Source: Hyphomicrobiales bacterium
Lineage (GTDB): Bacteria > Pseudomonadota > Alphaproteobacteria > Rhizobiales > HXMU1428-3
Reading direction: 5' to 3'
DNA length: 32,472 nt
NCBI GenBank assembly: GCA_017640685.1
Contig: JAEPQF010000017.1
Location: 6,482 to 38,953, forward strand
Part shown: piece after piece, positions 3,327-27,987 of the stretch
Layout of the letters: each line of letters opens with the position of its first letter
How positions within the stretch are numbered: position 1 is the first letter of the stretch
Made by a program: the position numbers and the translations under genes
Notes under the pieces: generated by a model
The model's input: the letters and a program-made list of their open reading frames with translations, nothing else
Databases searched by the model: none
What the model was told of the DNA's origin: nothing

Positions 3327-3668
3327 AAAAATTCACTCCGTATCTGAAGGTCTTCTCTTCTTTAGTTTGTTTATAATCTTAATTGCAAGCGAAGAGTACT
3401 AAATCTCAACAAAACAGCTTTTTCTAGACAAATCAGCGCTTCATTCACAGTGTGACAATTCACACATCTATTCTTTTCGGGATCTCCTATTGTCAAATCA
3501 TCAACAGCGCACAAGTTCAGTCTGAACGGAGCTAGCGCGGTTTGAATTTTGGGAAACCTAAAGCGCTTATAAAAAGCGAGTACAGATAAACTGAACGCAA
3601 AAAACTGTACGAGAAAAGCAAAGCGCAAATGAGATTAAAAACAGATTTCAAAATATCGGAGAAATACA
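3327..3668. other. Intergenic region between two divergent secreted-protein genes
   Basis: About 340 bases. It holds the perfect 16-base palindrome GTGTGACAATTCACAC at 3450-3465, which resembles a CRP-type site but has a four-base rather than six-base centre. A minus-strand 85-codon ORF at 3371-3628 has no family resemblance and no convincing ribosome site, so I do not call it. The right end carries the ribosome site of the next gene. Confidence 0.5.
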
Positions 3669-3938
3669 ATGAACACTTTAAAAACAATGATCATCAGCGC
3701 AATCGCAGTTCTAACAATCAGTTTCACAGCACTAACCGCTTCAGCAAGCGACGCCAACGCAGGCGGATGGAAAAAACACTACTACGGTCATAACCATTAT
3801 TACGGTTATAACTATGGCTACAAATATAAGCGCGGTTACTATGGCAAGAAATTCTACAAAAGAGGCCACTTTAAATTTAAGAAGTTCAACAAGGGTCGTA
3901 AATTCCGCAGAAACTTCCGCCGTAATTTCCGCCGCTAA
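3669..3938 (+). CDS. Small secreted Tyr/Gly/Lys/Arg-rich basic protein
   Basis: An 89-residue protein of unknown function. Residues 1-26 form a clear signal peptide (KT start, hydrophobic core, ASASDANA). The mature part is very low in complexity: a Tyr/His/Gly-rich middle ('HYYGHNHYYGYNYGY') and a Lys/Phe/Arg-rich tail ending in the duplicated motif RRNF. It is strongly basic and exported, so contact with the cell envelope, polysaccharide or nucleic acid is possible, but nothing in the sequence proves a role. GGAGA at 3658-3662 is well placed before the ATG, and a strong terminator follows at 3973-4003, so this is a single-gene unit. Compositional bias makes homology assignment unreliable. 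Confidence 0.75.
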   Translation: MNTLKTMIISAIAVLTISFTALTASASDANAGGWKKHYYGHNHYYGYNYGYKYKRGYYGKKFYKRGHFKFKKFNKGRKFRRNFRRNFRR

Positions 3939-4003: not shown

Positions 4004-4041
4004 ATTTTGAATAATTCCAGACCATCCAGACGAAGAAGGAG

Positions 4042-4365
4042 TACTGCCCTCTCTCAGGGCAGTAGGACATGGCGAAGCGCCAGCGTAGCCCGGCGCGTTG
4101 CGCCGCACCTCGTAGGCTCAAACGCGATAGCGTTTGAAATAGCCGTGAGAGATAAAAAAACGCCGCACAGTGCGGTTGCTAGTGGGCAACCTGAAGCACA
4201 TCAAAGAAGTAGGTCCGTAGCTATCGCTGCGGACTAGCCTGTGAGTTATTTTAGAGATTTCCCCCAATCAGCTGAAGCCGAAAAACGTAGGCCGAAGGCC
4301 GTCAGCGCTTAGCGCTGCACCTCGTAGGGCGGCCACTTCTTGGCCATCGCCCGTGAGAGAAAATA
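4042..4365. repeat. Mosaic of palindromic repeat modules downstream of cobT
   Basis: At least eight hairpins are packed into about 320 bases. Examples are TACTGCCCT/AGGGCAGTA (4042-4064), CGGCGC/GCGCCG (4091-4105), TCAAACGC/GCGTTTGA (4118-4137), a GTCCG..CGGAC stem (about 4214-4234), GGCC/GGCC (4290-4300) and CAGCGC/GCGCTG (4303-4317). Two modules share the ends GCACCTCGTAGG (4105-4116, 4317-4328) and GTGAGAGA (4145-4152, 4353-4360) but enclose unrelated stems. The left flank GGACATGGCGAA (4065-4076) and the right end GTGAGAGA recur in the mosaic at 27818-27990. The region lies between a terminator and the 3' end of cobT. ORFs through it are artefacts. Confidence 0.75.
4174..4200 (+). repeat. 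Hairpin repeat copy 2 (GGTTGC TAGTGG GCAACC)
   Basis: A well-preserved copy with fully paired arms GGTTGC/GCAACC, loop TAGTGG and the tail TGAAGCACA. It is embedded in the mosaic downstream of cobT, between the two GCACCTCGTAGG modules. Confidence 0.75.
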
Positions 4366-17729: not shown

Positions 17730-18884
17730 CTAGTGCTGTGTTGGGCGTTTCGCATTATAAGTTCTATAAGGCGTAAACGGTAGGTCAGTGACCCGCCAAA
17801 GCGATTTTCTCCCCCGAACTTCCACAAAAATTGATGTACCTAATTGATCATGAGGCAGCGTGACATAGCCCATCGCAACAGGCCCCCCTATGGTTGGCCC
17901 AAAACCACCACTGGTAACGACCCCAATTTCTTGCATCTGCTCATTAAACAATTTCGCCCCTTCTCGAGCGGGAGCCGCAGGACCATCAGGCAATAAACCA
18001 ACGCGACGTTTAGAAGGGCTATTAGCCACCTGGTTAAGAATGACAGTATCACCCAAAAACCCACCCTCCTGCCGGCGTCTCTTATTCATAATCCATGAAA
18101 GGTCAGCTTCAATGGGTGTAATGCTTGTATCAATGTCATGGCCATAAAGACAAAAACCGGCCTCAAGGCGCAAACTATCTCTGGCGCCAAGGCCAATAAG
18201 CTCAACATCCGGGTGGCTCATAAGCATCTTTGCAACGCGGCTAGCATCTTCATTGGCAAGAGAAAGTTCAAAACCATCCTCGCCTGTATAACCACAGCGA
18301 GAAACACGGCATGGTACATCAAAAAAATTGGTATCGATTTCTGACATATAAGGCATACCAACAGCTTCACCGCACCACACCGCCATAATTTTTTCAGCAT
18401 CCGGCCCTTGAAGAGCAAGCAGTTGGCGATCATCTAAAATTTTAAAATCGACCTCATCCGGCAAATAGGAGCTGATGTAAGCATAATCATGAGATTTCCG
18501 CCCCGCATTAACCACCAAGCCAACTATATGAGTCCCATCAGCTTGAACGCGGTGCGTGATCATCAGGTCATCTTCAATACCGCCCTGTTCATTGAGAAGA
18601 ACTGAATAGCGCAATCGCTCAGGCTTGAGGTTTAACACATCACCAGGGACGATTTTTTCTAAAGCACGGGCCGCAGTTTCATAATTTTCAGCAATAAGTT
18701 CTGCTTGCCCCATGTGAGAAACATCAAACAAACCAACTGTTTCGCGGCAATAAAGATGTTCTTGCTTGATGCCCTTCTCATAGTAAAGAGGCATAGAATA
18801 ACCAGCGAATTCCACCATTTTTGCGCCATGCTCAAGGTGCAAATCATGAAATGCCGTTTGTTTCAGTTCATTTTGTTCAGACAT
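17730..18884 (-). CDS. gcvT: Aminomethyltransferase (glycine cleavage T protein)
   Basis: GcvT transfers the methylene group from aminomethyl-lipoyl GcvH to tetrahydrofolate and releases ammonia. The 384-residue product has 'HLEHGAKMVEFAGYSMPLYY', 'VGLFDVSHMGQ', 'LLALQGPDAEKIM', 'RCGYTGEDGFELS', 'GLGARDSLRLEAGFCLYGHD', and the C-terminal barrel 'GFLGDTVILNQ ... RRVGLLPDG'. These include the folate-site aspartate and the substrate-entry segment. The start has GGAG nine bases upstream. It is the first gene of the operon, and its leader is a tandem glycine riboswitch, so the whole gcv cluster is expected to be induced by glycine. Confidence 0.97.
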   Translation of the reverse strand: MSEQNELKQTAFHDLHLEHGAKMVEFAGYSMPLYYEKGIKQEHLYCRETVGLFDVSHMGQAELIAENYETAARALEKIVPGDVLNLKPERLRYSVLLNEQGGIEDDLMITHRVQADGTHIVGLVVNAGRKSHDYAYISSYLPDEVDFKILDDRQLLALQGPDAEKIMAVWCGEAVGMPYMSEIDTNFFDVPCRVSRCGYTGEDGFELSLANEDASRVAKMLMSHPDVELIGLGARDSLRLEAGFCLYGHDIDTSITPIEADLSWIMNKRRRQEGGFLGDTVILNQVANSPSKRRVGLLPDGPAAPAREGAKLFNEQMQEIGVVTSGGFGPTIGGPVAMGYVTLPHDQLGTSIFVEVRGRKSLWRVTDLPFTPYRTYNAKRPTQH

Positions 18885-18962: not shown

Positions 18963-19241
18963 TTCTGTCGCGGAACCTGAGAGATTTATAGAATTGATAA
19001 TTTTTTAATCATCAATTCAAGGGTTGTTAGCTACATTCGCTTTTAAAGCTAAATGCAAACCCCTTTTTCCCCGTGGGTGAGAATGAAACATCATTCTACT
19101 TTCCAGAATGTCATTAGAAGCTGCGATCCTTTTGCCTGAGAGTTTCCGGGGGGGTTGCTCCTTCGGCGTCAGAAACTTTACTGGCAAATAACAGGTTACC
19201 CCTGAGACTTGCAAAAATAAGTTCTGATCTCTCTCGCAGTC
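18963..19241 (-). promoter_or_regulatory. Tandem glycine riboswitch upstream of gcvT, second aptamer enlarged
   Basis: Read on the minus strand, aptamer 1 (about 19241-19122) has P1 CTGCGA/TCGCAG, GAGAGA, the hallmark GACGCCGAAGGAGCAA and AACTCTCAGGCAAAAGGA: a canonical type, though with a long P2. Aptamer 2 (19108-18963) has P1 TTCTG/CAGAA, a P2 of AGAATG/CATTCT, a degenerate core CACCCACGGGGAAAA in place of CACCGAAGGGGAAAA, then a large P3 region with an 11-base-pair side hairpin (GAATTGAT arm), and closes with AATCTCTCAGG. Such tandem switches turn gcv expression on with glycine. About 80 bases of possible expression platform follow before the gcvT start. No clean terminator is visible there, so control of translation is possible. 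Confidence 0.9.
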
Positions 19242-19265
19242 GTTAACTGACAATATGTAGTGTGA

Positions 19266-27656: not shown

Positions 27657-27860
27657 TTTATCTTCCTGATGAAACAAACATACCTCAGTTTAACAAACCG
27701 AACCGCTGGGTAAAGCTTATTAATTGCCTGATGCTTGTACCTGTTGCTGGTGGGTAATTAGAGGCACACTTAATAAAGCAGTTAGATAAAAAAGAAATTT
27801 TAAGTGCAAAGAAAGAGCTCAGCCCTTTTCAGGCTGAGGAACATGGCGAAATACCAGCGC

Positions 27861-27885
27861 GGTTGCTAGTGGGCAACTGAAGCGC
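27861..27885 (+). repeat. Hairpin repeat copy 4 (GGTTGC TAGTGG GCAACT)
   Basis: Same loop TAGTGG as copy 2, arms GGTTGC/GCAACT (closing G-T in place of G-C), followed by GAAGCGCTA. It lies immediately after the conserved left flank of the second mosaic. Confidence 0.75.
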
Positions 27886-27911
27886 TACTAAAAAGCGCGG
27901 TTGCACCTTGC

Positions 27912-27937
27912 GGATGCTTTGTGGGCATCTAAAGCAA
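27912..27937 (+). repeat. Hairpin repeat copy 5 (GGATGC...GCATCT), nested
   Basis: Arms GGATGC/GCATCT carry a T-to-A change on the left matched by A-to-T on the right relative to copies 2-4, so pairing is preserved. The copy lies between an outer GGTTGC (27899-27904) and GCAACC (27943-27948), as if inserted into the loop of another copy. Confidence 0.7.
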
Positions 27938-27987
27938 ATAAAGGCAACCTAAAGCGCCACAAAAAAGCAATAGCCGTGAGAGAAAAT

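Follow-up and report, generated by a model that had tools for sequence, protein, structure and literature searches.

A mosaic four-hairpin repeat with covarying, reassorting stems in a Hyphomicrobiales genome and other Alphaproteobacteria

Results

The repeat at the locus and its relatives in the window

The window analyzed here, that is, the whole stretch of 32,472 nucleotides from contig JAEPQF010000017.1 of the Hyphomicrobiales bacterium assembly GCA_017640685.1, carries a repeated element of ~125 nt, designated F1, one full copy of which lies beside cobT on the plus strand at 4028-4155. This copy is full length, free of insertions, and the best scoring in the genome (143.1 bits; top match G000:C88:10509-10636) under R1, a covariance model built on 20 insertion-free copies from the same genome, with this copy among the training set. 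The layout of F1 can be written as ACGAAGAAGGAG - P1 - GGACAT - P2 - P3 - C N C(xyC)G N' A - P4 - GTGA(Gy'x')A-rich, in which constant boxes link four hairpins (P1 to P4), a 3-bp helix (P5) that pairs xyC on the 5' side of P4 with Gy'x' on its 3' side, and a lone covarying pair (N/N') in the linker J3/4.

In the window copy, the 5' constant box ACGAAGAAGGAG (4030-4041), delimited by a profile of 120 copies, is followed by the P1 hairpin TACTGCCCT-ctctc-AGGGCAGTA (4042-4064; seven model pairs, from sequence and covariation), the constant linker GGACAT (4065-4070; from sequence and the alignment of the genome's own copies), P2 (4071-4090), and P3 (CGGCGC-gtt-GCGCCG, 4091-4105; from alignment and covariation). 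J3/4 (CACCTCGTA, 4106-4114) contains the lone pair A4107-T4113 and the 5' strand of P5 (CTC, 4109-4111), P4 (4115-4144) has a GGC/GCC base (4115-4117/4142-4144) and a variable upper stem (TCAAACGC/GCGTTTGA), and the 3' tail GTGAGAGATAA (4145-4155) holds the 3' strand of P5 (GAG, 4149-4151) and an A-rich end, all on the plus strand. The stems of P1, P3, and P4 are variable from copy to copy, and P2 occurs in at least three interchangeable forms, namely GGC..GCC with an inner helix (GC/GC in this copy), GGCAGC/GCTGCC, and GACGCC/GGCGTC.

Further copies on the plus strand are less complete. A remnant of the 3' part of F1, delimited by eye, occupies 4161-4248 and consists of a hairpin of a second family, F2, placed in J3/4 (GTGC-GGTTGC-TAGTGG-GCAACC-TGAA-GCAC, 4170-4199), a P4-like hairpin of its own, and the tail TGTGAGTTA; the same arrangement is found in other copies. 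A variant without P1, F1b, lies at 4281-4363 (ACGTA-GGCC/GGCC-GT-P3 CAGCGC/GCGCTG-CACCTCGTA-P4 GGGCG..GCCA/TGGC..CGCCC-GTGAGAGA) within an R1 match of 42 bits at 4199-4363. A third copy, at 27804-27986 (49 bits), has P1 CTCAGCC/GGCTGAG, GAACATGGCGAA, and the tail ATAGCCGTGAGAGAAAA, with its middle replaced by F2 hairpins; by eye, these are a hairpin at 27857-27885 and another at 27895-27957, in the loop of which a second F2 (27910-27935) is nested. The fourth R1 match in the window is on the minus strand over 4028-4155 and reaches 14 bits. Upstream, also on the plus strand at 3507-3598, lies an element of a third family, F3 (TTCAG..CTGAA, AACGGAGC..GCGAGTAC), with an F2-like hairpin nested at ~3534-3566.

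An earlier, sequence-only reading of this region had described two modules with GCACCTCGTAGG on the left, GTGAGAGA on the right, and unrelated stems between them, and both are present as described. In the first, GCACCTCGTAGG at 4105-4116 precedes TCAAACGC/GCGTTTGA (4118-4125/4130-4137) enclosed by GGC(T)/(A)GCC, with GTGAGAGA starting at 4145; in the second, GCACCTCGTAGG at 4317-4328 precedes GGGCG/CGCCC (4327-4331/4348-4352) and GCCA/TGGC (4332-4335/4341-4344), with GTGAGAGA starting at 4353. The recurrence that it reported at 27838 was also confirmed, although the sequence there is GGAACATGGCGAA and differs by one base from the GGACATGGCGAA claimed. Its coordinates left out the 5' box at 4030-4041, and the F3 family, the additional covarying helix, and the replication-type orientation described below lie beyond it.

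Two other features of the window were recorded. A small plus-strand reading frame at 3669-3938, with a signal-like start and rich in Y, G, H, and K, lies in the cobT intergenic region and, by eye, is absent from the matching stretches of three relatives (G002, G003, and G004). A glycine riboswitch aptamer (RF00504, 61.7 bits) is found on the minus strand at 19114-19246, upstream of the minus-strand frame 17730-18884, which resembles gcvT.

Copy number and distribution

The repetition of F1 is not due to chance, as GCACCTCGTAGG has 42 exact copies genome-wide compared to none for the reversed pattern, and TAGCCGTGAGAGA with at most one mismatch has 95 compared to 2 for its control. At least 145 copies were detected by R1 in the 3.5-Mb draft genome, a lower bound because only 150 of 786 candidates were scored. 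F1 is present in all eight genomes of the genus, with at least 21 copies in each, in at least 12 of 53 other genomes of the order (up to 57 candidates scored per genome), and in at least 22 of 385 sampled Alphaproteobacteria from 15 families, the home genome included (9 candidates scored per genome); at that same depth of 9 candidates, the other carriers in the class sample, at least 21 of 384, are all from outside the order. Among the pattern-scan matches listed, the carriers include Methyloligella sp. DHS20C07, Rhodomicrobium sp. DHS20C08, Cohaesibacter sp., Henriciella sp. OFTM158, and OFTM, SZUA, and BMS3 metagenome-assembled genomes, F1 being a repeat of marine alphaproteobacteria.

The window copy had no match in 72,556 plasmid records and none in phages, and a gapped pattern with 20 specified F1 bases had none in viral contigs, so carriage by a virus or plasmid was set aside as far as these queries reach. 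No Rfam family matched over F1 in the window, and for six distant loci there were only two matches with E<1, both far below the gathering threshold and outside the element. Our search of the open-access literature yielded no description of F1, although it may have been described elsewhere.

The pairing is conserved while the stems change

It is clear from our results that the stem sequences of F1 change while their pairing is kept, both within one genome and across genomes. In an alignment of 20 own copies made from sequence only (A1), 94.4% of 554 cells are paired, two-sided changes occur in 18 of 29 pairs, and covariation is 0.407, compared to 0.141 for shuffles and at most 0.061 for slid partners. 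A second alignment, A2, comprises 31 matches fitted to R1, drawn from 16 genomes besides the home one (4 in the genus and 12 in other families); with P5 added, 95.2% of cells are paired, 30 of 32 pairs show two-sided changes, and covariation is 0.586, compared to 0.121 (shuffled) and at most 0.105 (slid). Alignments fitted to a model lean toward it, a bias of which A1 is free, and the P5 columns of A2 were not fitted to P5 because R1 does not contain this helix. For 61 wider-genome matches, partly overlapping those of A2, the corresponding values are 93.3%, 31 of 32, and 0.422 compared to 0.093.

P5 and the lone pair were followed separately at 341 anchored sites, 124 from the home genome and 217 from others. 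P5 is CTC/GAG at 171 of these, CGC/GCG at 46, ATC/GAT at 8, GTC/GAC and GGC/GCC at 6 each, AGC/GCT at 2, and AAC/GTT at 1, for a sum of 240 paired sites, and the lone pair is C-G at 134, A-T at 69, and G-C at 70, for a sum of 273; the remaining sites are mismatches or false anchors, the latter falling in P2 (AGC/GAG rows and own G-T rows). The six outer pairs of P1 are kept in 40 of 40 parsed own copies, compared to 17.6% when arms are swapped between copies, and in 54 of 60 copies of G002 and G004, compared to 21.9%. Not all copies are intact, as many own rows of a further alignment (A3) are without P5, often because J3/4 is occupied by F2. On the modeled strand, G-U pairs outnumber A-C in the stems (132 to 84 in A3, p=0.001; 19 to 12 in A2; 9 to 4 in A1), which is a modest bias only as a clue to the folding strand. 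A helix between CATGG after P1 and CCGTG in the tail, proposed from an RNA fold and one compensating copy (L001), was rejected because other families have CAAGG with the same GTGA tail. One copy in the home genome (L138:1501-1622, contig C99) is of the type found in other families, with a CGC/GCG P5 and GGTA/TACC at the base of P4, and possibly reflects transfer or an old lineage.

The check proposed in the sequence-only reading was applied to the 42 exact GCACCTCGTAGG sites. GTGAG follows within 150 bases at 37 of 42, and within 60 at 36 of these; at the other 5, the tails are altered (by eye) and the hairpin is still present. Of the 37 cores, 31 fold with at least seven pairs, compared to 43.5% of shuffled cores; five of the six that did not are short cores of the CCxGAGC..GCGAGG type, one of them imperfect, which the energy fold left open, and the sixth reflects an early GTGAG inside the P4 stem. 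These 37 cores begin in 26 different ways, and the comparison of the 42 sites therefore revealed neither a shared core nor flanks without a hairpin.

Stems assort as modules and host nested hairpins

Between copies, the alleles of P1 to P4 assort almost independently. The 40 parsed insertion-free copies of the home genome carry 19 P1 arms and 24 P4 arms in 36 P1 x P4 combinations, and mutual information among the alleles of P1, P2, P3, J3/4, and P4 is near that of shuffled data (z from -1.0 to 2.1), as it is for 60 insertion-free copies of G002 and G004 (z from -1.1 to 2.2); with 36 combinations in 40 copies, the test of the P1-P4 pair is a weak one. Matching sites in relatives hold a copy, no copy, or a copy with exchanged stems. 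G002 and G004 share a syntenic block of ~94 kb whose aligned pieces are 79 to 97% identical, and within it one pair of copies (A50432/B50221, named for G004/G002) has P1 CTCATCCC/GGGATGAG compared to CTCAGCCC/GGGCTGAG, another (A80539/B80453) has P2 GGCAG..GCTGCC compared to GACGCC..GGCGTC, and others, A33900/B32993 and A35998/B35650 among them, are nearly unchanged. At some sites F1 is found in just one of the two genomes (B12389 and A45214). At the window site beside cobT, the model detects copies in G000, G002, G003, and G004, and none at the cobT loci of G005, G006, and G007; G001 has only a weak match (27.8 bits) ~1.2 kb away. The F1b position (4281-4363) is occupied in G003 by an F1b copy that differs in its P3 and P4 stems and the 3' half of which, by eye, is common to a neighboring copy, and G002 and G004 have an F1 with an unlike P4. 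No clean insertion site was found among the G002/G004 alleles, the alignments being too diverged around the sites to give exact ends; insertion itself was not caught because these alleles differ by replacement around the element.

F2 (GCGC-GGTTGC-TAGTGG-GCAACC-TGAA-GCGC-A-rich) and F3 (GATCAG..AACGGAGC..GAGTACGG..CTGATC) occupy J3/4 and the loops of all four hairpins, P1 to P4, and are also nested in one another. Of 106 parsed own copies (44 of the 150 aligned were left unparsed in this count), 54 are simple and 52 contain long segments. P1 carries an insert in 26, and 24 of these still keep at least six of the seven outer P1 pairs; a hairpin may thus accept another in its loop because its stem and the boxes are left undisturbed. 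F2 lies on the same strand as F1 in 153 cases and on the opposite strand in 5. The sequence-only reading had offered two alternatives, an element that keeps structure rather than sequence and the stepwise insertion of hairpins into hairpins, and our data support both, for different parts of the element. The changing cores that it described are, however, native stems with reassorting alleles rather than the insertions.

Gene conversion or template switching among copies would best account for the exchange of modules, and template switching could yield some hairpin covariation without selection. One could go further and attribute the covarying stems to this process altogether, with template switching rewriting both arms and gene conversion spreading the result. 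Template switching is described in PMC8794818 as able to create and fix perfect stems, and the whole-stem replacements at matching sites, together with the shared 3' half in G003, fit such an account. However, P5 and the lone pair in J3/4 covary though they are not simple hairpin arms, P5 in fact spanning P4, the boxes and scaffold persist across families, and the interrupted P1 stems stay paired; we regard an origin of the covariation wholly without selection as unlikely.

The ends of the element and the search for a mover

The two ends of F1, ACGAAGAAGGAG and GTGAGAGAAAA, are not inverted copies of each other, so the terminal inverted repeats of MITEs are lacking, and the flank profiles of 120 copies gave no sign of a target-site duplication, nor did the G002/G004 alleles provide a clean empty site. 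In the same profiles, an A-rich tail of ~8 nt follows GAGAG, beyond which conservation ends, and the 5' boundary is fuzzy, with weak conservation out to about -20.

One Pfam profile for each of two mover types was run over 61 genomes, with those of the genus being drafts of 78 to 99% completeness. Y1_Tnp (PF01797) had no match in the home genome and was found in just one of the eight genomes of the genus and in 15 of the 61 overall, and RVT_1 (PF00078) was found in two of the eight; neither follows F1 over the 61 genomes, and an association with RAYT/Y1 or with a reverse transcriptase was rejected.

These counts bear on the idea that F1 is an RNA-copied, SINE-like retroelement, with folded RNA being reverse-transcribed at nicks or forks and the new copies ending in an A-rich 3' stretch. 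The tail after GAGAG, the A-runs that by eye also follow F2 and F3, and RNA-like motifs would be expected of such an element, but with an RVT_1 domain in only two of the eight genomes, and with A-richness that may be mere A+T-rich intergenic composition, we consider this origin quite unlikely.

The Y1 profile likewise bears on whether F1 is a GTAG-type REP/BIME element moved by RAYT (TnpA-REP). All 20 aligned copies of the home genome have CG(T/G)AG immediately 5' of P4, as GTAG precedes REPs, and copies in the genome G018 alternate in pairs like BIMEs. The pairing of P5 across a hairpin also recalls that between guide and cleavage site in IS200/IS605 elements, as outlined in parts of PMC8266576. 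Against this, all eight genus genomes have at least 21 copies while seven of them have no Y1_Tnp, F1 comprises four hairpins over ~125 nt rather than a single palindrome of 20 to 50 nt, and its strand polarity appears opposite to the use of the lagging-strand template by the GTAG strand. Movement by a RAYT thus seems to us unlikely.

Orientation follows replication-type composition in the home genus

In the home genus, the strand of F1 follows the third-codon-position GC skew, a composition of replication type. Where a contig of the home genome has two or more copies, these lie on its common strand in 111 of 113 cases, as are 64 of 67 and 58 of 58 in the G002 and G004 stretches (122 of 125 in sum, orthologous copies being counted in both genomes). 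Across six G002 contigs, the plus strand has a negative GC3 skew in all 18 stretches with plus-strand elements and a positive one in all 12 with minus-strand elements. TA skew agrees with the element strand in each of the six contigs, which plain GC skew did not separate (+0.018 for C6 and between -0.018 and 0 for C3, C5, and C7). For own contigs with enough data, GC3 skew agrees in 34 of 37 (p=1e-7), the three exceptions being near zero. On the three G002/G004 contigs where a marker gene could be placed, the elements oppose rpoB and 16S on G002:C1 (plus against minus for both), rpoB on G004:C3 (minus against plus), and 16S on G004:C18 (plus against minus), while on G005 C1, rpoB shares its strand with the closest of the elements listed, at a distance of 200 kb; G005 and G007 have a few minority-strand copies. 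If, as is general, the leading strand is the G-rich one and the one with rpoB and the rRNA genes, then by GC3 skew and marker genes the modeled strand would be the leading-strand template. In a genome of another family (G032), all 20 copies listed are strand-consistent over six contigs with at least two copies, and in G018 the copies listed form inverted pairs with no strand bias. These G018 pairs (L109 and L336; contigs C10, C12, C26, C49, C54, C59, C70, and C95) are F1-like, closely spaced, and opposite in orientation, like BIME/REPIN doublets.

Such polarity is also a property of chromosome-organizing sites; KOPS and Chi are replichore-polar elements kept by selection, and F1 might be another, rather than a mobile parasite. 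The polarity is near absolute and one 100-kb stretch of G002 contains 24 F1 matches, as such a role would predict. However, F1 is patchy, with no match in 41 of 61 order-sample genomes (at most 57 candidates scored each) or in 363 of 385 class-sample genomes (9 scored each), it is present or absent between relatives, it hosts unrelated nested hairpins and leaves decayed remnants, the unrelated F2 has the same polarity, and G018 has none. We consider an organizing function very unlikely.

The genes around F1 are of no consistent kind. By crude reading frames, the 51 copies with both neighbors called comprise 18 with both neighbors on the same strand, 19 between convergent genes, 13 antisense to both neighbors, and 1 between divergent genes, so that 37 of 51 lie 3' of a same-strand gene; another 6 copies fall within a called frame and 10 border on the edge of one. 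A conserved neighbor gene was sought among the reading frames beside 12 distant copies, and the ten of these proteins that were scanned each represent a different, unrelated Pfam family. This argues against a riboswitch, as does the lack of a consistent position upstream of related genes, orientations being mixed. One F1-like copy (L118 in G059, 1501-1601) lies antisense to both neighbors between an rplQ frame (PF01196) and an rpoA-like frame.

A cellular role as a structured RNA (a cis-regulator, an sRNA, or an mRNA 3' stabilizer amplified in untranslated regions) would suit the prevalence of positions after a same-strand gene, the single copy between divergent genes, the UUCG and GNRA loops and tandem G-A pairs seen by eye, and the excess of G-U over A-C. 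Nonetheless, the strand of F1 tracks the contig rather than the gene, 13 of the 51 copies are antisense to both neighbors, the neighboring proteins are unrelated, Rfam gave no match, and copies are polymorphic between relatives, which makes this role rather improbable.

Discussion

Taken together, we consider it somewhat better than an even bet that F1 is a non-autonomous mobile element recognized by its structure, which spreads at replication forks in the form of a folded single strand and whose modules are exchanged between copies; its mobility, its enzyme, and the nature of its folded strand are what we infer. Copies would spread as a folded single strand, either ssDNA or RNA, and recognition would be by shape together with the constant boxes, as the boxes and the fold look like the unit of recognition. 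A putative enzyme would join the folded strand to DNA at the replication fork with a fixed polarity. Existing copies may then exchange hairpin modules via gene conversion or template switching during replication, producing the mosaic.

By kind, F1 is a bacterial interspersed mosaic/palindromic element, and a categorically new mover is the bolder case. In that bolder case, F1 would be a class-wide family of parasites moving as a folded nucleic acid and defined by shape (four hairpins, P5, and the lone pair) rather than by sequence. Its copying at forks, always in one polarity, would be the work of an enzyme different from RAYT, IS200/IS605 transposases, and known reverse transcriptases, and the unrelated F2 and F3 would share this machinery and nest in the loops. 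We put this forward tentatively, as something we would sooner doubt than accept.

Most of what is known of palindromic repeats in bacteria concerns short sequence families associated with Y1 transposases. F1, in contrast, retains a multi-hairpin fold across many alphaproteobacterial families even as its stems reassort within one genome, and in the home genus its copies keep almost invariably to one replication strand. Two old questions thereby become testable from sequence alone: how both sides of a stem change together and how palindromic repeats spread with no transposase in sight. The many natural stem variants are also ready material for studying the fold, and further copies can be located directly with the covariance models.

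Within Hyphomicrobiales, the rhizobial RIME and the Bru-RS of Brucella are also intergenic palindromic repeats. Repeats of the REP type in Sinorhizobium are reported as transcribed (PMC2873474). REP and BIME elements are characterized, in sections of PMC8266576 and PMC3733652, by high copy number, intergenic location, hairpin formation, a GTAG-type tetranucleotide at the foot of the hairpin, and mosaic arrays, and F1 resembles RAYT-associated elements of this kind in all of these respects. It differs in having P5, variable covarying stems, and replichore-type polarity in the home genus.

With the ends of IS200/IS605 elements, as treated in parts of PMC8266576, F1 would share a folded single strand and, given that P5 covaries in such a position, bases 5' of a hairpin that pair with a site beside it, and the arrangement of P5 and GNAG may, by analogy, recall the guide and cleavage site of IS200/IS605 and REP elements set out there. 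A preference for one replication strand is likewise described for IS608 and ISDra2 in PMC6006769; the polarity of the modeled F1 strand appears opposite to that of an IS608-like element active on the same strand. F1 is, moreover, a short unit with dozens of stem variants and no transposase gene in sight. It would thus work like a single-strand element, and its membership in IS200/IS605 or REP is unsupported because Y1 is missing from seven of eight genus genomes and the polarity appears to be the opposite one.

The mitochondrial RHE, double-hairpin elements, and GC clusters, according to parts of PMC2800124, are dispersed hairpins in tandem or clustered arrangement, the mobility of which is inferred from presence and absence, with RNA and DNA routes being debated. 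F1 likewise consists of dispersed hairpins that are present or absent between relatives, a likeness of kind only, and is set apart from them by its location in bacterial chromosomes, its larger constant scaffold, its strand polarity, and the nesting of separate families within its loops.
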